From positions 1-64,000 of the IMG/VR virus record IMGVR_UViG_3300020445_001720: a DNA stretch of 64,000 nt; one strand, 5' to 3'. Shown here piece by piece: positions 3,422 through 61,433 of this stretch (the stretch's first letter is position 1; every line of letters starts with the position of its first letter). The translations under genes were made by a program, and so were the position numbers. This stretch comes from a virus. The notes under the pieces are model-generated. The model had not been told where the DNA came from and did no database searches. It worked only from the letters and a program-made list of their open reading frames with translations.

Positions 3422-4888
3422 TTATTTTTTGATTATGACTGAACCATTTAAAACAGATCTATGAGGAACAGACCTACCTTTACTCTTTGTACGTTCCTGT
3501 AATTCATGGGATTCTTTACATTCCTCTAATATACTTTTTGATCTAGGTAGATCTTTTATAAATTCATTAACTGAATCAACATGTATCATTTCTAGACCAT
3601 TACTAACTTGTATGTAACTATCAATATGCCATATAGAATCCTCACTCATAATCCCAGATGGTATAAATTCAATAGAACATTTTTCTTCATATGCTTTCAT
3701 CCAATCTGTTTTATTAGCAGTCATATATTTCCAGAAAGGAGAATCTATCCTATTTGTAGCATAATGTAAACAAATAAAATTAAATACGTCTAAGTAACTT
3801 TTCTGATTAAAATCATTATAATTAATCCTATCAAAATCTAAAAACTTAAGAGTAGTGTTATTTTGTACAAAAAATTGCAATTGATTATAAACTATATGAA
3901 GTCCTGTAGATTCTAATGGTTCAATAAACCCACTTGCAAGACCAACAGATAAACAATTTCCTATCCAATTTTTCTTATAATATCCTGGTTTGTAATGAAT
4001 TACTCTAGGATCATCGTTTAATTCAACACCATGATTCTTTTTCAACCATTCATTATAATTATTTTTTGCCTCTTCATCTGAAGTAAATTTAGATGAATAT
4101 ACGTATCCAGTTCCATATCTTTTCTTTAGTGGAATCTGCCATATCCACCCATCATTTGTTGCCTCTGCCTGTGTATATGAGGGTATCTCTCTAAGATTAT
4201 GAGGTATCTGTTGTGGAATTGCTCTATCTAATGGCAGATAACTTGTAATATCAACCCACTCAGGGTTTAAATGTTTAAATAAAACACTATTAAATCCAGA
4301 AGCATCCACATAAAAATCAGCAGTTACTTCTCCCCTATCTTTAAATACAATACTCTGTATACTTTTTCCATCTGAATTTACTTTCTCTACTACATCATCA
4401 ATAAGATCTATTTCTTCTTCAATATCATCTAAAATATATTGTGTGGCAATTTGCGTATCTATATGAAAAGCATGTTCATAATAAAAATCATGACTGGGAA
4501 CTGTCGTTGTTGCTTCATTATATAATATTCCCCCATTATAAGTTCCATTTGGAATTGAATATAAAGATTCTGGATAATCTCCTCCTATTCCATCTACCTT
4601 ACATTTACCAAATCCATGAAAATATTCTTTATTTTTTGTCCAATTCTTAAAATTTATTCCTAACTTTACCGTACTTCCAGTATCCTTAATAAAATCTCCA
4701 ATCTCTACTTTTAAATATCTTCTAAGAAAATCTCCAAATGCAGGTGTTGTGCTTTCTCCAACACTTATATTTTTTTTCTTACTATCATAATATACCTCTA
4801 CCTTAACTCTACCAGCATAAAATCTTTTAAAAACAGCTGCAGCCATCAGTCCAGATGTACCAGACCCAATAATAATAAGTTTTTTCAT
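3422..4888 (-). CDS. Flavin-dependent tryptophan-halogenase-family enzyme
   Basis: The 488-residue protein shows the complete signature of flavin-dependent halogenases. There is an FAD-binding GxGxxG (GSGTSG, 8-13), VGESTTP (43-49), and the candidate catalytic lysine K75 in a VKLGINF context (PrnA K79). The halogenase-specific WxWxIP motif is WIWQIP (248-253), and FIEPLESTG (321-329) has E326-S327 matching the PrnA Glu346-Ser347 pair. Length is normal for the family, with no truncation. Such enzymes oxidise halide with FADH2 and O2 and transfer it to an aromatic substrate. A cyanophage member (VirX1 of phage Syn10) has been characterised. The substrate here is unknown. It sits between two fibre genes and ends at the adhesin late promoter. 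Confidence 0.9.
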   Translation of the reverse strand: MKKLIIIGSGTSGLMAAAVFKRFYAGRVKVEVYYDSKKKNISVGESTTPAFGDFLRRYLKVEIGDFIKDTGSTVKLGINFKNWTKNKEYFHGFGKCKVDGIGGDYPESLYSIPNGTYNGGILYNEATTTVPSHDFYYEHAFHIDTQIATQYILDDIEEEIDLIDDVVEKVNSDGKSIQSIVFKDRGEVTADFYVDASGFNSVLFKHLNPEWVDITSYLPLDRAIPQQIPHNLREIPSYTQAEATNDGWIWQIPLKKRYGTGYVYSSKFTSDEEAKNNYNEWLKKNHGVELNDDPRVIHYKPGYYKKNWIGNCLSVGLASGFIEPLESTGLHIVYNQLQFFVQNNTTLKFLDFDRINYNDFNQKSYLDVFNFICLHYATNRIDSPFWKYMTANKTDWMKAYEEKCSIEFIPSGIMSEDSIWHIDSYIQVSNGLEMIHVDSVNEFIKDLPRSKSILEECKESHELQERTKSKGRSVPHRSVLNGSVIIKK

Positions 4889-13452: not shown

Positions 13453-13460
13453 TATTTATG
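13453..13460 (-). promoter_or_regulatory. T4-type late promoter, CATAAATA
   Basis: CATAAATA on the minus strand overlaps the 3' end of the 879-residue fibre gene and lies 38 bp upstream of the 180-residue gene ATG (13414). It gives that gene its own late promoter. Confidence 0.6.
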
Positions 13461-16095
13461 TTTTTATTATAGGCAAGAAATTAATATTTCGTGGTCTGGT
13501 CTCACTACCATTGTTTCCACCATTTGTAGCGTTTGGCGAACCACCTTCAACATTTCTTATGAAACTGGAATCATCTGCAGCTGGTCTATCATTAGCACCA
13601 CCACTCCAGTCGCTATTTCCAAGAGCATGAATTGGTATGTCATGAGTGTGAGTTTGGAATTGATGGGATTGACTTGATGCAAATGCTCTACCACTATCTA
13701 CACCTTTAGCATCATCATATCCTCTAATAAATTCTCCACGAAGATCGGGAACACTAAAGTTCTGTCCACTTCCTCCATATTGAAATCCAATCGCATTGTA
13801 TAAATCTTGATGTTGCCCAATTCCTGGATTATTACTTATATTACCATATGATGCACCATCACAATATAAGAATCCTGAAGGGGGAGTTGGATAACTTCCA
13901 CTTCCTTTATCTCCAGCATACCATACAATACTACCTGTGACAACACCACCAACAGCACCAGTACCCTGAATACCTTGTACTCCCTGAATACCTTGAATAC
14001 CCTGTCCACCAACAACACCACTAATACCCTGATTACCCTGTAATCCTTGAATACCTTGAGATCCTGTAATTCCTTGTATACCTTGATTACCCTGACCAGT
14101 ATTACCCTGAACACCTAAAACACCTTGTATTCCTTGAATACCCTGAATACCTTGAACACCTTGATTACCATCTGGTCCTTGAAGACCTAAAAGACCCTGA
14201 ATACCTTGTATACCTTGAGATCCTACACCATTATCTCCCTGAATACCTTGCGTTCCTTGTGGTCCTTGAATACCCTGAATACCTTGAGCACCCTCTTCAC
14301 CAGTATTACCCTGAACACCCTGAATTCCTTGAATACCCTGCTCTCCTTGAATACCCTGAATACCTTGAAATCCTTGAGTTCCCTGAACACCCTGAATACC
14401 TTGAACACCTTGTTGTCCTTGAGGACCTTCTCCACCCTGAACACCCTGAACACCCTGAGCACCAACACCCTGAATTCCTTGAATACCCTGTATACCTTGG
14501 TCACCTTGTGCACCAGTTGTACCTTGAACACCCTGTAGACCTTGATTACCCTGAATACCCTGAACACCCTGAATACCTTGATAACCCTGTCTACCCTGTA
14601 AACCTTGTGTACCTTGTGCACCAGTTACACCTTGAATACCTTGAATACCTTGAGATGCTTGATTACCTTGTGCACCAGAGATACCTTGTATACCTTGATT
14701 TCCCTGTATTCCTTGTCTACCTTGTCTACCTTGCCTACCCTGATTTCCTTGCCTACCTTGGCGACCTTGGATACCTTGCTCTCCTTGAATGCCTTGATTA
14801 CCCTGAACACCCTGAACACCCGAAGCACCTATTCCTTGTATACCCTGTACTCCTTGTATACCCTGTAAACCTTGTTCTCCAGTTGTTCCTTGTGCAGCTT
14901 GAGTTCCTTGTCTACCTTGGGTTCCTTGTTGTCCCTGAATACCCTGAAGACCTTGAAAAGTAGCATCTTCAATACTTATTGATCTGGTTGTATCTTGATC
15001 AGCATCATATATTAATAATAAATCATTAGCACCATCAGCACTTGAAGTTTGAACTTGTTCTGTTATTGCTTTTTTAGTTACTTTACCGTCAAAGACAGAT
15101 GCAGTAGACATACCAGAAACAAATGATCCACCATCTACAGTTAGATTAGATGAGGAAACTGCAGAACCAACTACAACTCCAGTAGTAAAAGTTGATACTC
15201 CAGTAAAACTTGAAACACCTGTTACTGTTAAATTTTTTGTTTCAGTAGTTTCAGAGAACTTTGAATTACCAACAACTTCAAATATAACTTCTGGGGACTG
15301 GGTTCCTATTCCTATTCTATTATTTGTGTAATCATACCAAAAAACATCAGCACCACCAACAGTTCCTGATGCACTATGATATTGTATTTGGGATACTGTT
15401 CCCCCCGCACCAGAAGTAACTGCATTTGCAGTTTGCCATTGCATTCCTCCAGTAGCAGTTTTAACTAAAAGTTCTCCAGTACTTCCTGTCCCATCTCCAG
15501 CATCAACTATAGCTCCACTAATTTTTACATTTCCTACAATATCTAAATCATACTTTGGTATAGCACTTCCAATACCAATATTGCCATTAGTTTTAGAAGA
15601 TAATATGGTTCCACCAACACCAATTTGAAAAACATCTGTTGCAGTTACTATTCCTGAACTATTAACTAAAAGATATGGAGATGCATCAAAACTACCATCA
15701 TCATTGAATATAATTTGACTAGCACTTCCTGGTGGAGATATCGTGATTGTGGATATAGATCCAAAATTATTTGCAGTTACATTTACAATATTACCAACAA
15801 AATCAAGTTTACTAATACTATTACCAGTACCAACTATCCCACCCTCATCAAAAATAGTTAAACCAGTAGTTAATATACCTGAAGGAGCAACCTGCCAATA
15901 ACGATCATATTGTCCACCATTTTCAACAGTAACTAACTGATAGTATTCATCTCTTATAGGAAGTGTTTTTTCTCCAACAAAACCTAAATTGGGTTCTGTC
16001 TCTTCGGGAGACAAATATACATGACGATCTGTACTTAAACCACTTAACGTAGAAAGTTTTCTTTTACCACTTAAAAATCTCGCCTTATTCGCCAT
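13456..16095 (-). CDS. Collagen-like fibre with tail-collar domain
   Basis: The 879-residue protein has three parts. Residues 1-380 are beta-rich fibre sequence with GIGT-type repeats. Residues about 380-716 are an almost uninterrupted collagen-like Gly-X-Y array dominated by GIQG, GVQG, GRQG and GNQG triplets. Residues about 720-879 form a phage tail-collar domain (YCDGASY, VPDLRGEFIRGYD, then SHxHxHDIP and a Gly/Asn-rich end). Collagen-like shafts trimerise, and collar domains usually form the distal receptor-binding part. Glutamine instead of proline is strongly preferred at Y positions, so the helix cannot rely on hydroxyproline. It is 1 bp from the upstream 747-residue gene. Confidence 0.9.
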   Translation of the reverse strand: MANKARFLSGKRKLSTLSGLSTDRHVYLSPEETEPNLGFVGEKTLPIRDEYYQLVTVENGGQYDRYWQVAPSGILTTGLTIFDEGGIVGTGNSISKLDFVGNIVNVTANNFGSISTITISPPGSASQIIFNDDGSFDASPYLLVNSSGIVTATDVFQIGVGGTILSSKTNGNIGIGSAIPKYDLDIVGNVKISGAIVDAGDGTGSTGELLVKTATGGMQWQTANAVTSGAGGTVSQIQYHSASGTVGGADVFWYDYTNNRIGIGTQSPEVIFEVVGNSKFSETTETKNLTVTGVSSFTGVSTFTTGVVVGSAVSSSNLTVDGGSFVSGMSTASVFDGKVTKKAITEQVQTSSADGANDLLLIYDADQDTTRSISIEDATFQGLQGIQGQQGTQGRQGTQAAQGTTGEQGLQGIQGVQGIQGIGASGVQGVQGNQGIQGEQGIQGRQGRQGNQGRQGRQGRQGIQGNQGIQGISGAQGNQASQGIQGIQGVTGAQGTQGLQGRQGYQGIQGVQGIQGNQGLQGVQGTTGAQGDQGIQGIQGIQGVGAQGVQGVQGGEGPQGQQGVQGIQGVQGTQGFQGIQGIQGEQGIQGIQGVQGNTGEEGAQGIQGIQGPQGTQGIQGDNGVGSQGIQGIQGLLGLQGPDGNQGVQGIQGIQGIQGVLGVQGNTGQGNQGIQGITGSQGIQGLQGNQGISGVVGGQGIQGIQGVQGIQGTGAVGGVVTGSIVWYAGDKGSGSYPTPPSGFLYCDGASYGNISNNPGIGQHQDLYNAIGFQYGGSGQNFSVPDLRGEFIRGYDDAKGVDSGRAFASSQSHQFQTHTHDIPIHALGNSDWSGGANDRPAADDSSFIRNVEGGSPNATNGGNNGSETRPRNINFLPIIKT

Positions 16096-50157: not shown

Positions 50158-52725
50158 TTAACCAACTCCGTGATGATGAACTGAACCCCAAACGTGACCA
50201 ATGAAATAAGCAGCACCCCAATCATAGTTACGACCTCTACCTGTCAATTCTCCATTACTGAATAAAGTCATTGACCACGGAGTATGACTTGAATCACCAT
50301 CATAATCTCCAGTTGCCCAGATATCTATACAAGTTACTCCCCCATTATCAAATGTAACACTACTCTGACCTTGACTGTAAGTTGAAGAAGAAGATGTGTT
50401 ATCAGCAGGAGTGGATCCACCTGCAGAATAGAAAGGTGCATGTAACTGTCTTCCTAGAGCATACTGCCTTTGACCATTTTGCTGATATCTAACCTGATTG
50501 TTTGTCACATTGCTACTGCTTCCACAACCACTTTCTCCATATCCATTCCAACCAGTTGCATAAACATGTCCTTTATCAGTAAGGAAGTATTGACAAACAC
50601 CACCCGATCTTCCAGAAGAACACATAGCAACACAATTTTGTAAAAGTTGGTTACTAGAACTTCCTGGCATATATGTTGGGTTGTTGGCTGAGTTGGTACT
50701 AGGAGCACTATTATCTCCCGTCATATTATAATGACCATCATATCCAGTTCCATATGTGGTTCCATCATTAAGTCTCCACCATAAATGCCCATACTCATTA
50801 CAAGCATCAGCCCAGAAGTTTCTGATTGAACCATTACCTGTTAATCCAGTTCTTCTAGTTAAAGAACTACTATTAGTTCCTGTGGTCGTGTTCTGACTTC
50901 CTAATTGTCCATATCCATTGTATCCTTGACTCCAGATTGATCCATTTCCATCTAAAACATAGAGACTATCAACGTTTGCTTCTGAACAAGCAACAACAAC
51001 TTTTTGAATTCCTCCATAAGTAGCCCAGTTAACATTTATTTTTTGAGGAGATTGTGATCTATCAGAATCTCCAAATCCACTGTTTGTAGGATATCCAAGA
51101 TTACCTCTAGTATTATAACCCCAAGACCAAAGTTCTCCATCTTCATCCATTACCATAGACCATCTATGTCCTGCCCAGATGTCAACAATCTTTTTCCCTC
51201 CAAAGAAAAGATCTTTATTCATCGAATGAATCAAGTACACTCGATTGTTTATACCCATACTATTAGCAGAGAAGTACATAATATCGTCTGATGAATCACC
51301 AAATCCACCACCTCTATCAGAAGAAATACCACACTGACCAGTATCGTTTCTTCCCCATGTATGAACTTCTCCATACTCATCTAAAGCAACAATATGAGAA
51401 TCACTATCTCTTGCTTGCCTTCCACCACTTACTACTTTTACAATAGATCTTCCTTTGAACTGAGTTCTATGTAGGTTAATACCCTGATCTGTACCTTCAT
51501 CATTATCCCAACCTAAGTATCCGTTACCATAGGTTCCAGACATGGTTAGAGTACCATCACTATGAAGATTTGCCCTCATAGAGGTCCAACTATGCATTGC
51601 CTGTATAACAGTAGGATTATGATCAGTTCTTTGTCTCGGTAAATTACCAATATCAGGTTGTATACCCGTCTTAGCCATTAGAGCATTAGAGATATCTGCC
51701 TCTCTTACTCCCTGATGAATTGTATTTGCTCCCTGAGTATAATATTCATTTGGTGTTCCACCCTCTGCAACTAACTGTCCATTATTACAAAGGAATTGAT
51801 TACTCTTACGATATGACATATGTCCATCGTTCCAACCAGAATTCCATCTCCATGCATGAGGAGAAGTAGAACCTATACCCAAACTTGTATTCCAAGGAAT
51901 ATTACCATTCCATCTATTATTTGTTCCCCACTGTGGAAGATCTATCCAAGGATGTCCTTTCCATTTCCATGGTTGCTTATTTGTAAATCCACTCACAGCT
52001 TGATGAGGCATTAAATCATCTCCTCTAGAGAAAATTCTCCAAACTCCAGGAAAATCAAACTGAGGATCTACATCTGAATGACCTACACCACAAACATATG
52101 ATGAATTATTTCTTTGAACAATATCGCCTGGAAGATATACAGCATCGTCGTCCCAGTTTCCTACAGGATTATAACCCTCAGATAATATATCCCAATCTAA
52201 CCAGTTAACAGAATGCTCATACATTCCACACATTCTACGTGGTCCTAATGTAAATGGTGCATTAGAAACAGCTGCTGTATTAATACCAACTTGGTTTAAA
52301 TATAAATCTGCTGTGTTTGAATCTACAACACTAATTGAAGTAATACCCACATAAGGATCAAAATACTCACTGTAAACCATAAGACCAGTAGGTGGTGCAA
52401 ACTCTTCTCCAGTTTCAGAATAGACACCTGGCATTGTACCATCAGCACCACTATATCTTTGATGAGAAGTTACTAATCCCCACTGCTGAGTTTGTGGATT
52501 GAACCCACTAAAATCCATACGAATTTTATTGGTCTGTATTCCTAAAGTTGGTACAGTTCCATTTATAGTATTGAGAAATATTGGAGAATGATTCTTTGGC
52601 GTATCATTTTGAAAGATATATGTCCTATTATCATAATCTACAATATCTCCCTTACTGTAAACTGTCGAGGCACTATAAGTACCTCTATGCATGAATTTAA
52701 CTTTTCCTAATGTAATGTTAGGCAT
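50158..52725 (-). CDS. RCC1-like propeller adhesin with carbohydrate-binding-like modules (copy 2)
   Basis: The 855-residue protein has a first CBM-like module at about 10-40 (RGTYSASTVYSKGDIVDYDNRTYIF). A second is near 190-215 (NWDDDAVYLPGDIVQRNNSSYVC). RCC1-like repeats follow from about residue 420: VHTWGRNDTGQCG, LWSWGYNTRGNLG, IWSQGYNGYGQLG, VYATGWNGYGESG. The IVALDEYGEVHTWG and MVMDEDGELWSWG pattern is the classic RCC1 blade repeat. A 190-residue segment between the modules is not repeated in the neighbours. Same likely role as the two relatives. Confidence 0.75.
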   Translation of the reverse strand: MPNITLGKVKFMHRGTYSASTVYSKGDIVDYDNRTYIFQNDTPKNHSPIFLNTINGTVPTLGIQTNKIRMDFSGFNPQTQQWGLVTSHQRYSGADGTMPGVYSETGEEFAPPTGLMVYSEYFDPYVGITSISVVDSNTADLYLNQVGINTAAVSNAPFTLGPRRMCGMYEHSVNWLDWDILSEGYNPVGNWDDDAVYLPGDIVQRNNSSYVCGVGHSDVDPQFDFPGVWRIFSRGDDLMPHQAVSGFTNKQPWKWKGHPWIDLPQWGTNNRWNGNIPWNTSLGIGSTSPHAWRWNSGWNDGHMSYRKSNQFLCNNGQLVAEGGTPNEYYTQGANTIHQGVREADISNALMAKTGIQPDIGNLPRQRTDHNPTVIQAMHSWTSMRANLHSDGTLTMSGTYGNGYLGWDNDEGTDQGINLHRTQFKGRSIVKVVSGGRQARDSDSHIVALDEYGEVHTWGRNDTGQCGISSDRGGGFGDSSDDIMYFSANSMGINNRVYLIHSMNKDLFFGGKKIVDIWAGHRWSMVMDEDGELWSWGYNTRGNLGYPTNSGFGDSDRSQSPQKINVNWATYGGIQKVVVACSEANVDSLYVLDGNGSIWSQGYNGYGQLGSQNTTTGTNSSSLTRRTGLTGNGSIRNFWADACNEYGHLWWRLNDGTTYGTGYDGHYNMTGDNSAPSTNSANNPTYMPGSSSNQLLQNCVAMCSSGRSGGVCQYFLTDKGHVYATGWNGYGESGCGSSSNVTNNQVRYQQNGQRQYALGRQLHAPFYSAGGSTPADNTSSSSTYSQGQSSVTFDNGGVTCIDIWATGDYDGDSSHTPWSMTLFSNGELTGRGRNYDWGAAYFIGHVWGSVHHHGVG

Positions 52726-52745: not shown

Positions 52746-55259
52746 TTAATAATGGGAATTACGAAGTCTTTTCATACCGCCATTAGCTGACGCATTACTC
52801 ATACTAGCTATATATCCACTGTTTCCAATAGATGGATTCTGAGCATGGAATACTTGACCTGTTCTTAGATCAGCCCACATACTCTCTTTACTGGAAGATT
52901 GTCCACATGTATGGAAGAACCAGTTACCATAATTAGCATATGGTTCATGGATTCCTGGTTTTAGTCTATAGTTATTCTGTACATAATCTGGATCGAAATC
53001 TCTTCTAGTATTATACCCATCACTGTCAACTCTACCAAAGTTGTGTCCAGCATGATACCATTCGCCCCAATTATTATATTTTCTTGCAGCGAATGTACTA
53101 TTATATCTATACGCAGCGATAGAAATATGAGAACTATTATGTCCCTGATTAGATTCAACCATCATACAGTTTGTGAAATCTGAGTTATTTCTTTGCTTAA
53201 CATTTTGGAATGTTGATGCGTTTGAAGTATTATTAGAACTATTACTTAAATTATAATATCCATTATATCCACAAGCATACAATTGATTATTAATATTTGA
53301 TGATCCTCTGGTCATATAAGAGAATACATGACTGTTTCCACCACAGCACCAATAATCTACGCAGTCTGTAATCACAGATCCTTGTCCAGAACCTTGGTTT
53401 GAAGTTGCTGTTACTGGATTTGAAGGACTACTATATCCTGAAGTACGAACTTGAATTGGAACCTGACATCTGTTTGTATGATTATGTCCTAAGTTACCAT
53501 AACCATTATATCCCCAAGTATATACGGATCCATCCCCTCTTACAAGAGCATTAAAACCATGAGATCCAGAACCATTGATGCTCATTTTCTTAACTCTCTG
53601 GTTGGTTCCTGTTAAAGTACCAAAAGCATTAGAGTCAACTCTACTAGAACTTAAATTACTTCTATTACTTGTATCTCCTTGTCCTAATTGTCCATATCCA
53701 TTATAACCACAACAATATAAATGTCCTTTATCAGTTAAAACAAACAGTTGTGCATACTGTCCACCAGTTGCCCAAATCTCAACAATTCTACCATATGAAC
53801 TAGCACTAAATGAAATTTGTGTTGGTTCATCCCTATTAGTGGTTGTAGAATCTCCTATCTGCCCATATCCATTATAACCCCAAGAATAAAGATCTCTTGT
53901 ACCATCAGTATTTTCAATTAAAGCATGCATTGTACAAGATACCTGAGTACCTCCACCAGTTGATGAAGCAATACGGATTGCCTTTTTACCTCTTAGTACT
54001 GTTGTACCAGATTTATTTACGTTTGCATATCCACATCTGGCAGGATGATGCACTCCTGAGTCTGTAGTTCTATTATCTCCAGCTTGTCCATGTCCATTAT
54101 ATCCAGAATAATGAACCTCTCCATTATTAAATAAGAACAAAGTATTACCTTGTCCATGTTCTACTTGAATTATTTTTGGATATTCTCCATCTGGAGTTGG
54201 AAGAAGTCCATCAATATAATCTAAGTTGCAGAAATTTCCTTCATTCTGTGCACTAGTATTAGCAGAATCATTATCATTCTTTGCAATACCAGACATTTTA
54301 TAGTAATCTCTTCCATTTCCTACCCACATACCTCTACGATTGATATACCCAAAATCGTACATTGGGTTATGAGTTCCATATGTTTTAGCAGGACCAATAC
54401 TATCTCCCATACCAACTAAAACATTAGTTCCTGTTGCTCCCGCAGTGGTATTAGTTGTTACATATGTACTAAAACTAGGATCGCTTCCACCACTTCTTCC
54501 TGTATAACCAGAAACTGATGTATCAATATTAATTGTTGGACTTGAAGTATAGCTTTTGCCAGGATTTATAATTTCACATTGGAATATATTACCACTTGTA
54601 TTAATATGTGCCACTCCTTCAAAGTCCGATCCACCACCACCTGAAGCAGTTAGTCTAATCATTCCTGTTTTAGGACTACCTGTTTTTCCTTTAACTCTAT
54701 TAGATGTCAACCATCCCGATCCTTGTCCACTAAGGATTAGAGTATTGATAGTTCCTATTACTGATTGAGATTTCGCATTCCATAAAGGTTTGTAAGGAGG
54801 ACTATATCCATCATTATCTTTACCTAAGAAAGTAGTTACTCTTCTAGAAATATGCTTAGATAAACGATACCAATAAGTAGATTGTGTTGTTGGTTCGTCT
54901 ATTGGTAAAGCAGTTGCTGGATTATTACCAGTATGTGCCTGTCTACAAATATATGTTGAAGTATCATAATATTTCCAACAAGAATTATAAGCATACTCAT
55001 GTATGTAAGTTACAATATCATTTAATTGATATGCTGTTGAACTACTCCAATTACCCCTATCTCTTGATAAACCAGATATTTTTTCCCAATAACTAGCATT
55101 TGTACCAGGAACATGACTTCCGCCTGAAGTATTAGTTTTACAAAGATATTGTCCACCACCATAATTGACAATATCATCTACAGTGTAAGCATCTGACGTA
55201 TTATATACACCTCTTACATTGTATCTAACTTTTCCTAGTGAACTTGTACTAATTCCCAT
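52746..55259 (-). CDS. RCC1-like propeller adhesin with carbohydrate-binding-like modules (copy 3)
   Basis: The 837-residue protein has CBM-like modules at about 12-60 (GVYNTSDAYTVDDIVNYGGGQYLC) and 68-130 (NWSSSTAYQLNDIVTY). A Gly-rich beta segment follows. Regular RCC1 repeats then occur: VHYSGYNGHGQAGD, LYSWGYNGYGQIGD, LYCCGYNGYGQLGQ, VYTWGYNGYGNLGH, LYACGYNGYYNL. These repeats are closer to one another than in the other two copies. The start KVRYNVRGVYN matches KVKFMHRGTYS of copy 2, so the N-terminal attachment region is shared. It lies 3 bp from the collagen-like giant fibre. Confidence 0.78.
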   Translation of the reverse strand: MGISTSSLGKVRYNVRGVYNTSDAYTVDDIVNYGGGQYLCKTNTSGGSHVPGTNASYWEKISGLSRDRGNWSSSTAYQLNDIVTYIHEYAYNSCWKYYDTSTYICRQAHTGNNPATALPIDEPTTQSTYWYRLSKHISRRVTTFLGKDNDGYSPPYKPLWNAKSQSVIGTINTLILSGQGSGWLTSNRVKGKTGSPKTGMIRLTASGGGGSDFEGVAHINTSGNIFQCEIINPGKSYTSSPTINIDTSVSGYTGRSGGSDPSFSTYVTTNTTAGATGTNVLVGMGDSIGPAKTYGTHNPMYDFGYINRRGMWVGNGRDYYKMSGIAKNDNDSANTSAQNEGNFCNLDYIDGLLPTPDGEYPKIIQVEHGQGNTLFLFNNGEVHYSGYNGHGQAGDNRTTDSGVHHPARCGYANVNKSGTTVLRGKKAIRIASSTGGGTQVSCTMHALIENTDGTRDLYSWGYNGYGQIGDSTTTNRDEPTQISFSASSYGRIVEIWATGGQYAQLFVLTDKGHLYCCGYNGYGQLGQGDTSNRSNLSSSRVDSNAFGTLTGTNQRVKKMSINGSGSHGFNALVRGDGSVYTWGYNGYGNLGHNHTNRCQVPIQVRTSGYSSPSNPVTATSNQGSGQGSVITDCVDYWCCGGNSHVFSYMTRGSSNINNQLYACGYNGYYNLSNSSNNTSNASTFQNVKQRNNSDFTNCMMVESNQGHNSSHISIAAYRYNSTFAARKYNNWGEWYHAGHNFGRVDSDGYNTRRDFDPDYVQNNYRLKPGIHEPYANYGNWFFHTCGQSSSKESMWADLRTGQVFHAQNPSIGNSGYIASMSNASANGGMKRLRNSHY

Positions 55260-55262
55260 TTT

Positions 55263-58200
55263 TTATAATTCTAAAACTAAATGTCCTGATGAGTCTATTG
55301 AAGCTTCAACACCTCCTGGAGCAATAAAATCGTGTAAGATTGGTTGAGATCCGCGAATGAAATCATTCTTCTCACTGTAATCTACGGATGTAGTTGAGTC
55401 AACCTCAGTAAATGATAGTTTACCATAATTGGTAACATCATTCTTGTTCTTATTTATGCCGAAATAATAATATGAATTTGCTGCACTAACGTTAGTTAGG
55501 TTTGCACCACTACCACTAAAACTTGTTGCAGTAACAGCACCAGTATTTGCGTTAAAGTTAAAAGTAGTATTACTTACCGCAGTCTGATTAGTTCCTAAAG
55601 CATCAACTAAAACTGGATGTAAAGTAGTTCCTGATGATGTTGCAGCATTTACAGTTGTGGAAGGACCTCCAGGACCTTGAGTACCCTGTCTTCCTTGAGT
55701 TCCTTGAGAACCCGTTGTACCTTGGCGACCCTGTGTTCCTTGAGCACCCGTTGTTCCCTGAGAACCCGTTGTTCCTTGAGAACCCGTTGTTCCCTGTGTA
55801 CCCTGTCTTCCTTGAGTTCCTTGAGAACCTGTTGTACCCTGTCTTCCTTGAGTTCCCTGTGTACCCGTCGCTCCCTGAGTTCCTGTTGTTCCCTGAGAAC
55901 CCGTTGTTCCCTGAGAACCAATAGTTCCTTGGCGACCTTGAGTACCTTGAATACCTTGATTTCCCTGATTTCCTTGGCGACCCTGTGTTCCTTGAGCACC
56001 CGTTGTTCCCTGAGAACCCGTTGTTCCCTGAGAACCCGTTGTTCCTTGAGTTCCTTGTTCTCCAGTTGTACCCTGTCTTCCCTGAGTACCCTGTGTACCC
56101 TGTCTTCCTTGAGTTCCCTGTGTACCCTGTCTTCCTTGAGTTCCCTGATTACCTGTATCTCCTTTTGTACCAGTTCTTGCGAAAGTAACAATTATATCTT
56201 CAGAATTACTAAATGATGTTGAACCAGAAACGTAAGAAACAGTTACCTTATGATATCCACTTGCTTCAGTATTAGTTCCACTGATTGTGAATAGTGTAAA
56301 ATCTTCTGCGTTAGTCTTATTAGATATCCTTACATGTCCCTTTACAGTAGATGTAGAATCATCAATAGTTCTTAGGAAGTCTTCTATATTAGTACCACCA
56401 TCATCCTGATCATCAATGTACATTACTGTAGCAGATGATAATGTTCCGTTATTAAATCTTAAATTTCCTTGACCTGGATCACTATCTGTTGTTGTAGTAC
56501 TGAATGTGTAATCAAACGTAGCACCACCGAAGTTACCTGTAGTACCCTGTGTTCCCAAAGTTCCTTGAGTTCCTTGAGTTCCCTGTGGACCCTGATTTCC
56601 TTGGCGACCCTGAGTACCTTGAGTTCCTTGTTCTCCAGTTGTTCCTTGGCGACCCTGAGTACCTTGAGTTCCTTGTTCTCCAGTTGTACCCTGAGTTCCC
56701 TGTCTTCCTTGAGTACCCTGAATACCCTGACGACCTTGGCGACCTTGTGTTCCCTGATTTCCTTGAGTTCCTTGTGTACCTTGAATACCTTGAATACCCT
56801 GTCTACCCTGAGTTCCTTGTTCTCCTTGGACACCTTGAATACCTTGTCTACCCTGAGTTCCCTGTGGACCCTGATTTCCTTGGCGACCCTGAGTACCTTG
56901 AGTTCCTTGAGGTCCAAGATCACTAATATTAATAGTACCAGCCATACCTGAGTGGTTCTGGCAAACATAATAAACATTATTTGGTGCGTTATATGGAACT
57001 TCGTAAGTTATGATTGCTGACTGAGAACCATTATTACTTACACCATCTCCAGCATCAAGAACATTTGATGAATTATAAGCACCTGAACTTGTTTGAAGCC
57101 AGAATGGATGTCCAGAAGCACTTACATCAAATGTATATGCAAATCCTCTTAGTAATTCTAAAGTTGGATTGCTAAAGGTATCAATTACATAGTTACTTGA
57201 TCCATTATTAGTTACTGTATATTCTCTGGATCCTGGATAACCCTGAACACCTTGGCGACCTTGGGTTCCTTGAGTACCCTGTGTTCCCTGACGACCTTGC
57301 TGACCCTGTGTACCTTGAGTACCTTGAGTACCTTGATACCCTTGGCGACCTTGAGTTCCCTGTGTACCTTGAGTACCTTGAGTTCCTTGTTCTCCAGTTG
57401 TTCCTTGAGCAGCTTGAGTACCTTGAATTCCTTGGATACCTTGTCTACCCTGAGTTCCTTGTCTACCCTGAGTTCCCTGTGGACCCTGAGTTCCTTGTGT
57501 ACCTTGGTGACCTTGAGGACCTTGAGAACCTTGAATACCTTGTCCACCCTGAACACCTTGAATACCTTGTCTGCCTTGATTGCCCTGAATACCCTGAACA
57601 CCTTGACGACCTTGCTGACCCTGAATACCCTGAACACCCTGAATACCTTGGCGACCTTGATTACCCTGAGTACCCTGAGTACCTTTGTCTCCAGTTCTAT
57701 TAAATGCAAGAGATAATCTCTCTCCAGATCCAGGTACACTACTACTATTTGATATTAATGTAACAGCAATCAAATAGTAACCACTCATATCGGTTACAGT
57801 GTCTACTTGGAATACGTAGTTATTATTATTTGCGTTATCAGAACTGTATATTGTTAGATAACCTTCATTAGAACTGGAAGAATCATCCCAAGTATCAAAC
57901 CAACCTGATTGATCTGTACTGAAATCATCGCTATCATCAATATAAATTCTATCAACTGATCCAATTGTTCCATTATTGAATTTTACAAATCCACTACCAG
58001 GATCTGAGTTTGTTGTATTAGTACTGAATAAGTACTCAATTCCACCTCTCTTACCAACTTGTCCTTGAGTTCCTTGTCTTCCTTGGGTACCTTGAGTGCC
58101 TTGTGTACCCTGTCTTCCTTGAGTTCCCTGTGTACCCTGAGTTCCTTGTTCTCCTTGGACACCTTGTCTTCCTTGCTGACCTTGAATACCTTGTCTTCCT

Positions 58201-61200
58201 TGAGCACCTTGTATTCCTTGCTGACCTTGTATTCCTTGAATACCTTGGCGACCTTGAATACCTTGCTCTCCTTGAATACCTTGAGTACCCTGTCCACCTT
58301 GTAAACCTTGACGACCTTGGACACCTTGCTCTCCTTGAATACCTTGTATTCCCTGACGACCTTGAGCACCCTGAGTACCAGTAGTACCTTGAGTTCCTTG
58401 GCGACCTTGAATACCTTGTCCACCTTGTCTACCCTGAGTACCTTGAGTTCCCTGTGGACCTTGAGTTCCCTGAGTACCTTGTTGTCCTTGGATACCTTGG
58501 ATACCTTGTTGTCCTTGTAATGCTACCTCTTGAATAAGAGACCATGATACACCAATTCCAGTAGAAGTTAGAACTGAAGTTGTTGTTCCAACTTGATCAA
58601 TATTATCAAATAACTTTCCTTTAACATCAAGACCAGAGAATGCAGTTATAACACCAACACTACTAACAGTCTTAGCATGGAATACTTGAGTAGTTGTAAT
58701 TCCAAGTGTGCTAACTCCACTAACATTTAATCCAGTTAGTTTTGGAGCCATTGTAACTGAAACAATACCAGAACTAACTGTTAAGTTAGTATCATCTATT
58801 TTAACAATACCTTTAGCAGAAGTTGATGCATCAGAATGAATGTTACTAGTAACAACACCACTTACACGACCATAAGAATCAACATTAATTTCAGTAACAA
58901 AAGAATTATCTCCAGTTGTTATATCTGATTTAGAATTAGTTACTGTTGCTAAATCAATATCATTTGCAGCAACAACAATACGATCAGCAGATGCTGTTGC
59001 AACTGCCAGTTCATTAGGATTAGGGTTGATTAAACCCGCACCAGCAAGAGTTATAGTTGGAGATGTAAACTGTGCCCATTCTAGTATAGAACTACCAATC
59101 GAAACCGTGCCTTGAGTTGTATGAACCCAACCAGTTCCTCCATTAACTGTACCATTACTAATAAAGGTAAAGTCACCTTGTGCTATCTCATCATTAGTAT
59201 CATACGTTGCTGCCCTAACAAGTTCAAAGTTTGTAGATCCACTACCAACTCTGTTGACTACGTATATACCATTATGTGCTTTATTAGTTTGATCTTTGAC
59301 TAAGACTCTATCATCAAATCCCAATCCTGCAAATAAGTCAATTACTATTGCAGCATTTGTATTTCCATATAATTTTGCACCTATTCCAGAAGTTCCGTTA
59401 TCATATCCACCTGCTATATTTGCTGTTGTTGCAGCAGACACTGCTTTTTGAACTGTAATAGATGATTGGAAGTTATCAAGATAATTCTTAGTTACAAGTT
59501 CGTTAGTTGCAGAAGGACTATACTCTGTAGCAAAGAAACGATAACCATATACATTACTGGATATACCTGCCTGTCCAGAAACTGTAAGAGTTCTGTCCAT
59601 GGTATCGGTTCCAACACCAACACGACCAGTGGCATCATCATAATTTAATCCAGTCGCACCATCAAAACTACCACTGTTATTAAACTGAACATTATGGTTT
59701 GAACCACCAGGTCCAACACTATTAGAAGTAACAGTTGCAATATTTCCAGAAGCAGATGCATTTATTCCTGTTCCTACAAAATCAATCTGTGTTATAGAAG
59801 CAAGAGTTCCCTGTTGAGATCCCTCATCTTTAATAGTAACACCAGTAATAGCACTTGAAGGAGCACCATCTACCCAATCAATACCATCTGCTGTTGATAT
59901 TAGTACCTGTCCATTAGTACCAGCTTGATTATTTTTATCGTATAAAGCACCTTGTAATCTTAAGTTTCCATCAACATCTAACTGTTGACTTGGAATTGTT
60001 GTAGTACCAACTCCAACTTTCTTTGTTAATCCATCAACATGTAGAGCATCATTTAAATTAATATCTACATCGCCACCGTCACCTAATTTTACATAGTCTT
60101 GTGCACCTTCATATGCATCTATTAATTGCTCATTACCAGCAAATATTCTTAATCTATCAGCATCATATTTGATGTAAGTATCTGTATCATCCTTATGATA
60201 TAGATTTTCTCCAACATAAACAGTATCTCCGAATGTTGCGATTCCTGTTACTGTTAATGATCCACCAAGTTCATCAGATACACTTACTCCTGCAAATGTT
60301 GCAGACTTGGTTACTGTAAGGTCAGTAGTTCTTGTCTCTCCATAAACATCAAGTGCTTTAGTAGCTAAACTTGTTCCAATACCAACTTTACCATCTTGTA
60401 ATATTGAAAGTGCTTCAACCTGTGTGCCTGTTTGGTTATCAGTTATAAATGAAAGTGTCTTCTTATTACCGTCTCTCGTTCCCAAATATTTTACATTAAA
60501 TCCATAGTCACCACTATCCATCGTGATGTCATTGGATGCTCCACTCAATCTGATTAGATCAACATCTTTTGCAACTGTGTTAACTCTGATAACTGAACCA
60601 GATGGAGTACCTGTTGCATAATTAATATTTAAAGTATTATCATCAAGATTTACATCAGCATTAATATCTACAGCAGCACCGAATGTTGAAACACCTGCTA
60701 CGTTTACAGCATCTAATTGAGTTTGTCCATCTACATCTATGGAATCCTCAATATCCATAGGACCTACAAATGTAGATACACCTGTAACTTGTAATTGATT
60801 GGTACCAGTTGTGCCACTAATAGTAATTCCATACCCAGTTGTGGCTATCTTCTCTACATTATTATAATATAATGAAGTATTAGTATCAGGATTAAATACT
60901 GCACTTACTTTACTATTAGCTGCATCATTAATATAAACTTGATTTGAACCCAGAAATACACTACCAGTTCCAGAATCGTTTATATAACTATGGCCACCAT
61001 CATGATATATGCTTAGGTCTGAACTATCACCAAATGTTGCTTTAGAATGATCAAGAAAGTTTATAGTATTTGTTGAAGGAGTAAATGTAATTGAAGTTAC
61101 ACCTGCTGTAGCACCTATTAAGTTTATAATATCTCTAAAGGTTGCAATACCTGTTATGTTTAGAGTTTGTGTCTCTAAAACAGTAATAGAGGTTATTCCA

Positions 61201-61433
61201 AGAGTTGATATACCAGAAAGTGTTATATTTTCAAATGAACCATCAAACTTAGTTGCAGTTACAACACCAGTAAACTCACCACCACCTTTTACGTAGAGGT
61301 CAGAGGTAGCATTTGTAGTTCCAACACCTACACGACCCAAAACTGATAAAGAAGTATCCTCCGATCTATATTCGGGGATACCAATCTTTAGAGAGTTCTG
61401 TCTACCGCTTAAATATCTTACTGGTCCTGCCAT
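55263..61433 (-). CDS. Giant collagen-like fibre with cupredoxin-like insert, 2056 aa
   Basis: Residues 1-965 are beta-rich fibre shaft with GVGT-type repeats. Four collagen-like Gly-X-Y blocks follow (about 969-1129, 1248-1401, 1506-1638, 1753-1923), dominated by GTQG, GRQG and GIQG triplets. Three globular domains separate them. Those at about 1130-1247 and 1639-1752 are homologous (YLFSTNTTNSDPGSG versus YTFSTTTTDSDPGQG, both ending FNRTG/FARTG). The middle one (1402-1505) has GHPFW (H1442) and YVCQNHSGM (C1491, H1494, M1497), the ligand set of a type 1 copper site. The C-terminal 130 residues resemble a small tip domain. The start MAGPVRYLSGRQNSLKIG resembles that of the 879-residue fibre (ARFLSGKRKLSTLSG). 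Confidence 0.88.
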   Translation of the reverse strand: MAGPVRYLSGRQNSLKIGIPEYRSEDTSLSVLGRVGVGTTNATSDLYVKGGGEFTGVVTATKFDGSFENITLSGISTLGITSITVLETQTLNITGIATFRDIINLIGATAGVTSITFTPSTNTINFLDHSKATFGDSSDLSIYHDGGHSYINDSGTGSVFLGSNQVYINDAANSKVSAVFNPDTNTSLYYNNVEKIATTGYGITISGTTGTNQLQVTGVSTFVGPMDIEDSIDVDGQTQLDAVNVAGVSTFGAAVDINADVNLDDNTLNINYATGTPSGSVIRVNTVAKDVDLIRLSGASNDITMDSGDYGFNVKYLGTRDGNKKTLSFITDNQTGTQVEALSILQDGKVGIGTSLATKALDVYGETRTTDLTVTKSATFAGVSVSDELGGSLTVTGIATFGDTVYVGENLYHKDDTDTYIKYDADRLRIFAGNEQLIDAYEGAQDYVKLGDGGDVDINLNDALHVDGLTKKVGVGTTTIPSQQLDVDGNLRLQGALYDKNNQAGTNGQVLISTADGIDWVDGAPSSAITGVTIKDEGSQQGTLASITQIDFVGTGINASASGNIATVTSNSVGPGGSNHNVQFNNSGSFDGATGLNYDDATGRVGVGTDTMDRTLTVSGQAGISSNVYGYRFFATEYSPSATNELVTKNYLDNFQSSITVQKAVSAATTANIAGGYDNGTSGIGAKLYGNTNAAIVIDLFAGLGFDDRVLVKDQTNKAHNGIYVVNRVGSGSTNFELVRAATYDTNDEIAQGDFTFISNGTVNGGTGWVHTTQGTVSIGSSILEWAQFTSPTITLAGAGLINPNPNELAVATASADRIVVAANDIDLATVTNSKSDITTGDNSFVTEINVDSYGRVSGVVTSNIHSDASTSAKGIVKIDDTNLTVSSGIVSVTMAPKLTGLNVSGVSTLGITTTQVFHAKTVSSVGVITAFSGLDVKGKLFDNIDQVGTTTSVLTSTGIGVSWSLIQEVALQGQQGIQGIQGQQGTQGTQGPQGTQGTQGRQGGQGIQGRQGTQGTTGTQGAQGRQGIQGIQGEQGVQGRQGLQGGQGTQGIQGEQGIQGRQGIQGIQGQQGIQGAQGRQGIQGQQGRQGVQGEQGTQGTQGTQGRQGTQGTQGTQGRQGTQGQVGKRGGIEYLFSTNTTNSDPGSGFVKFNNGTIGSVDRIYIDDSDDFSTDQSGWFDTWDDSSSSNEGYLTIYSSDNANNNNYVFQVDTVTDMSGYYLIAVTLISNSSSVPGSGERLSLAFNRTGDKGTQGTQGNQGRQGIQGVQGIQGQQGRQGVQGIQGNQGRQGIQGVQGGQGIQGSQGPQGHQGTQGTQGPQGTQGRQGTQGRQGIQGIQGTQAAQGTTGEQGTQGTQGTQGTQGRQGYQGTQGTQGTQGQQGRQGTQGTQGTQGRQGVQGYPGSREYTVTNNGSSNYVIDTFSNPTLELLRGFAYTFDVSASGHPFWLQTSSGAYNSSNVLDAGDGVSNNGSQSAIITYEVPYNAPNNVYYVCQNHSGMAGTINISDLGPQGTQGTQGRQGNQGPQGTQGRQGIQGVQGEQGTQGRQGIQGIQGTQGTQGNQGTQGRQGRQGIQGTQGRQGTQGTTGEQGTQGTQGRQGTTGEQGTQGTQGRQGNQGPQGTQGTQGTLGTQGTTGNFGGATFDYTFSTTTTDSDPGQGNLRFNNGTLSSATVMYIDDQDDGGTNIEDFLRTIDDSTSTVKGHVRISNKTNAEDFTLFTISGTNTEASGYHKVTVSYVSGSTSFSNSEDIIVTFARTGTKGDTGNQGTQGRQGTQGTQGRQGTQGTQGRQGTTGEQGTQGTTGSQGTTGSQGTTGAQGTQGRQGNQGNQGIQGTQGRQGTIGSQGTTGSQGTTGTQGATGTQGTQGRQGTTGSQGTQGRQGTQGTTGSQGTTGSQGTTGAQGTQGRQGTTGSQGTQGRQGTQGPGGPSTTVNAATSSGTTLHPVLVDALGTNQTAVSNTTFNFNANTGAVTATSFSGSGANLTNVSAANSYYYFGINKNKNDVTNYGKLSFTEVDSTTSVDYSEKNDFIRGSQPILHDFIAPGGVEASIDSSGHLVLEL

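Follow-up and report, generated by a model that had tools for sequence, protein, structure and literature searches.

The IMG/VR virus record analysed here has 65,063 bases, of which the window covers 64,000. The reverse strand of the window carries the gene of a large collagen-containing tail fibre, set among tail genes of a T4-like phage that is a distant relative of P-SSM2 (Table 1). With its long Gly-X-X repeats and its tail-fibre context, the product is a collagen-like phage fibre, and it is therefore presumably trimeric. An N-terminal fibre region is followed by five Gly-X-X blocks of 20-57 triplets, and the two blocks that flank the domain considered below are uninterrupted. Compared at the DNA level, the whole gene showed scattered partial similarity to other sequences, mainly in the part that encodes collagen. 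Two other long interruptions of the collagen region are occupied by copies of a companion beta domain, the AlphaFold2 (AF2) model of which has a pLDDT of 94.8. This domain is found together with the cupredoxin described below in many contigs and in S-H34; neither a PDB fold match at E<=0.001 nor an NCBIfam match was obtained for it.

Table 1. Features of the fibre gene, with positions in the 64,000-base window.
Feature	Position	Strand	Residues	Basis
Collagen-containing tail fibre gene	55263..61433	-	2056 aa	ORF; Pfam Collagen E=1.1e-84; PHROG tail fibre families
Collagen-like block 1	58038..58514	-	974-1132, 53 triplets	Gly-X-X repeat
Companion beta domain, copy 1, in first collagen interruption	57690..58046	-		
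Collagen-like block	57414..57692	-	1248-1340, 31 triplets	Gly-X-X repeat
Collagen-like block N-terminal of cupredoxin	57225..57404	-	1344-1403, 20 triplets	Gly-X-X repeat
Predicted cupredoxin domain between collagen blocks	56913..57227	-	1403-1507, 105 residues	AF2, Foldseek, hhalign
H1442 codon, predicted first copper ligand, in GHPFW	57108..57110	-	motif 1441-1445	
C1491 codon, predicted thiolate ligand, in CQNHSGM	56961..56963	-	motif 1491-1497	
H1494 codon, predicted second His ligand	56952..56954	-		
M1497 codon, predicted axial Met ligand	56943..56945	-		
Collagen-like block C-terminal of cupredoxin	56520..56915	-	1507-1638, 44 triplets	Gly-X-X repeat
Companion beta domain, copy 2, in third long collagen interruption	56169..56522	-		
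Last collagen-like block	55659..56171	-	1755-1925, 57 triplets	Gly-X-X repeat

Other genes of the window deserve mention. Just downstream of the fibre gene and on the same strand, 50158-52725 and 52746-55259 encode proteins with RCC1-like beta-propeller repeats and, towards their N-termini, CBM_5/12 matches that are above the cut-off in one and below it in the other; both are possible adhesins. A second collagen-like tail fibre gene, for a protein of 879 aa, is located at 13456-16095 (-), and 3422-4888 (-) encodes a phage member of the tryptophan halogenase family (PHROG 2928, E 7.8e-102).

The insert between the two uninterrupted collagen blocks carries, in order, the ligand set of type 1 copper proteins, His...Cys-x(n)-His-x(n)-Met. 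These four residues had been singled out in an earlier, sequence-only reading, and their positions, with the first His in GHPFW, were confirmed. The same reading had likened them to the ligands of plastocyanin and pseudoazurin; their order bears this out, but their spacing does not. Plastocyanin and pseudoazurin have C-x2-H-x4-M, whereas the loop of the insert is C-x2-H-x2-M, which is the spacing of amicyanin, and the profile of the insert was aligned with the C-x2-H-x2-M of 1id2 and 3c75. C1491 is the single cysteine of the entire fibre. Across the homologues, the first His is followed almost without exception by a Pro. Small blue copper proteins usually have Asn or Ser at this position, and it is multicopper oxidases that carry HPF there; the phage site may therefore not be classically blue.

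The fold of the insert was predicted with AlphaFold2 from a 39-sequence alignment of viral homologues. The best model has a mean pLDDT of 95.1 and a pTM of 0.87, the pLDDT of the other four ranging from 65.9 to 80.1, and it forms a Greek-key beta sandwich of the cupredoxin type. Cupredoxins typically have their first His before a strand, their Cys after a strand, and their second His and Met in the loop that precedes the last strand. The predicted model matches this arrangement: in its own numbering, H40 lies just before strand 43-45, C89 just after strand 84-88, and M95 just before strand 96-102. When the model was compared with the PDB using Foldseek, 35 matches were obtained at E<=1e-3, all of them to cupredoxins or to multi-domain copper oxidases and nitrite reductases. 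They were led by rusticyanin (E 1.9e-5, TMq up to 0.67), AcoP, Hyphomicrobium nitrite reductase, plastocyanin and pseudoazurin, with moderate TM-scores to solved cupredoxins (0.41-0.67). A PDB search with the single sequence of the insert returned only the Glr2806 protein, a match judged to be spurious.

Homology to known cupredoxins was detected by profile-profile comparison. Aligned with hhalign against 28 Bacteroidia domains matched by PF00127 (Copper-bind), the insert family gave a probability of 96% (E 4e-9), and its H, C, H and M shared columns with the ligands of the PF00127 domains; the controls, one reversed and ten column-shuffled profiles, did not exceed 1.1%. Furthermore, some bacterial proteins were matched by both models; L140, for instance, by Copper-bind PF00127 (1.1e-10) and by the profile of the phage domain (2.7e-5). 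Direct matches to curated families were weak (halocyanin 1e-3, amicyanin 5.6e-3, Copper-bind 0.012, rusticyanin 0.026), the rusticyanin profile reaching E 1.9e-4 with the S-H9-1 copy of the domain. No member was seen to pass the curated Pfam or NCBIfam cut-offs, including those of PF00127 and of amicyanin TIGR02657; for halocyanin, the score was 19.1 bits against 93.8. The Pfam family At5g54830 was sub-threshold in the fibre (E 0.07), though up to 2.1e-5 in other members, and was not relied on. The assignment of the insert to the cupredoxins, put forward in the sequence-only reading, is thus well supported by the predicted fold and by homology in which ligand aligns with ligand, as well as by the conservation of these ligands.

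In the viral alignment used for modelling, the four ligands are all among the 13 invariant columns. Over 88 unique copies, counting for each site those that have a residue there, the first His was found in 81 of 87, the Cys in 81 of 82, the second His in 81 of 82 and the Met in 82 of 82. Part of this sample was found by peptide patterns that contain the ligands and is biased accordingly; whole-domain tblastn matches in phages, second copies found by profile and Bacteroidia genomes were used as well. Among 34 diverse representatives (<62% identity), conservation was 0.97 for the Cys, 0.94 for the Met, and 0.94 and 0.91 for the two His, the median column being at 0.50, and the ligands fell within the eight best-conserved well-populated columns. 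One miss at each ligand site comes from a single representative, L173, which is probably a false positive. Degenerate copies are rare, and losses tend to occur together in them: L167 lacks both His and the Met, and the second copy of L130 has Ser at the Cys and His positions. A Lentisphaerae MAG protein (L082:4677-6125) has Asn in place of the first His (GNPFWIK), and its domain is fused to a downstream region that resembles the formylglycine-generating-enzyme type. As for cysteines, 73 coding frames, some of them truncated, have 99 among the 37,970 residues that lie outside the domains, and 79 ligand Cys plus 4 others within the domains.

This pattern of conservation suggests that the domain binds a metal. 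The reading that we favour, and consider fairly probable, is that a genuine cupredoxin has been reused as a knob of the fibre and probably holds one copper, which would staple the sandwich, the knob itself being used in assembly or adsorption. The main competitor, a good deal less probable, is structural reuse alone, whereby the cupredoxin fold would serve as a rigid insert, its His, Cys, His and Met being kept for packing rather than for metal. Many relatives of the cupredoxins do without copper, redox chemistry is needless in a fibre, and the few copies devoid of ligands, such as that of L082 or the second one of L130, are compatible with a purely structural role. However, packing does not readily account for four ligand-site residues that outrank almost all others across highly diverged sequences, nor for a Cys that is otherwise rare in these proteins and yet is retained at a single position.

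Far from being a one-off, the domain recurs widely as a module in the structural proteins of cyanophages. A tblastn search of 50,697 phage records detected it in 302, or in 308 with a more relaxed limit, and almost all of these records bear the name Synechococcus phage, Cyanophage or Prochlorococcus phage; P-SSM2 itself encodes four copies. In many IMG/VR contigs it is found between or after collagen blocks, with one or two copies per fibre. It also forms the C-terminus of the gp9-type baseplate proteins of Syn9, S-SM1, S-H35 and P-TIM68, of which those of Syn9 and P-TIM68 match T4_gp9_10_N at their N-terminus, and of a subtilase of phage S-H9-1 (L090:2315-4321). In the podovirus P-SCSP2, it is present in the N-terminal region of a protein. 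S8 proteins similar to the S-H9-1 subtilase are found in BFVD for ACG-2014e and ACG-2014h. The domain is also matched by structure predictions for further viral proteins, among them beta-sandwich proteins of pithovirus and marseillevirus. Outside viruses, 15 of 295 Bacteroidia genomes have matches at E<=0.001, some of them weak, and several of these homologues have apparent secretion or lipoprotein signals. An apparently secreted actinobacterial protein, from Ilumatobacteraceae (L083:1341-2141), has a collagen repeat of its own and a C-terminal cupredoxin, the same pairing as in the phage fibres.

Phage records list the domain only under tail fibre, connector or hypothetical names. The P-SSM2 protein PSSM2_028 (AAX44406.1, phage tail fiber-like protein), whose record carries no cupredoxin annotation, shares 54% identity over the domain, the four ligands and the position between collagen blocks; unlike the window fibre, it is shorter (559 aa), has another C-terminal part and an extra Cys pair in the domain. 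The baseplate wedge tail fiber connectors of the gp9 type, Syn9 gp102, S-SM1 gp9 and P-TIM68 gp087, also have the domain with its four ligands, but as a C-terminal domain that follows a T4 gp9/10-type N-terminal region (PF07880 in Syn9 and P-TIM68), with no collagen. Of the solved folds, those of rusticyanin and AcoP are nearest; both are copper proteins of acidophiles that are longer and have other loop lengths. With the amicyanin/plastocyanin-azurin family (PF00127; TIGR02657), the phage domain shares the predicted fold, the ligand order, the column-to-column alignment of the ligands and a Cys that ends the strand preceding the ligand loop, and with amicyanin the length of that loop. It differs from this family by the Pro after the first His, by a conserved GVTNNG region and by scores below the cut-offs. 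Moreover, members of the family are free periplasmic electron carriers, whereas the phage cupredoxin is part of a fibre.

The presence of the domain in fibres and baseplate proteins, together with the surface environment suggested by its secreted bacterial homologues, might point to copper-dependent host recognition. A loaded or apo knob would then dock on a copper-handling protein of the host surface, or mimic a redox partner, and thereby aid adsorption. This possibility, which we regard as unlikely, is modelled on the iron-bearing tail fibres proposed under the name of Ferrojan Horse. In particular, HxH motifs in the tail fibre of Alteromonas phage R22Y were proposed to bind iron (PMC11705849), which, like the present case, places a putative metal site on a marine phage fibre, but the site considered here would be a cupredoxin copper site and not an HxH iron site. 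Against it, copies located mid-shaft, in gp9-like baseplate proteins or fused to a subtilase suggest a generic role rather than one specific to a receptor.

That another transition metal such as zinc would be the physiological ligand appears improbable. Zinc occupies Cys/His sites in many proteins, and cupredoxins can take it up in vitro, but Met is atypical for zinc, ligand order and spacing follow the pattern of type 1 copper proteins, and the nearest folds as well as the matched cupredoxin profiles belong to copper proteins. Finally, a chance motif in an unrelated beta sandwich, to which the sub-threshold Pfam and NCBIfam scores might have pointed, was rejected as highly improbable in view of the controlled profile homology, the fold match, the bacterial proteins recognized by both models and the ligand conservation in the 34 representatives.

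The insert, then, is best read as a homologue of the plastocyanin/amicyanin/rusticyanin superfamily that serves the collagen-like fibre as a globular, modular knob. Its four conserved ligand residues most likely hold one copper in a type-1-like site, the loop of which has the length seen in amicyanin. Free copper is scarce in the cyanobacterial cytoplasm, which counts against a copper-holding knob; as fibre folding occurs in the cytoplasm of the host, copper loading would probably take place during or after lysis. Once bound, the metal would most likely act as a staple of the Greek-key sandwich, with the knob offering a surface for interactions in virion assembly or host adsorption and not for catalysis. 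The domain occurs mid-shaft, at tips, in baseplates and at the tail of a protease, and this variety of positions argues for a generic structural or interaction module over one dedicated to a single receptor.

The cupredoxin family is a classic one, and its phage sequences have for years been in public records as fibre, connector or hypothetical proteins. The searchable literature yielded no account of a phage fibre or baseplate that contains a cupredoxin, a weak negative given that most subscription papers lie outside its scope. A textbook electron-transfer domain with intact predicted ligands thus appears to be a common virion building block of abundant ocean phages, and its recurrence in this state suggests, short of proof, that these virus particles carry metal. 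Copper matters to the likely hosts: in one study (PMC13374865), Prochlorococcus was more sensitive to copper than the other picophytoplankton. A bolder proposal, which seems to us rather doubtful, is that marine cyanophage particles are copper proteins with many redox-competent type 1 sites, whose copper loading controls fibre stability or attachment; if true, it would tie phage infectivity to the copper chemistry of the ocean. The domain also offers a concrete and inexpensive way to test whether phage particles contain copper and how a metal acts in a fibre. For many cyanophages, it further provides a functional hypothesis for the C-terminal domain of their gp9-like baseplate protein.
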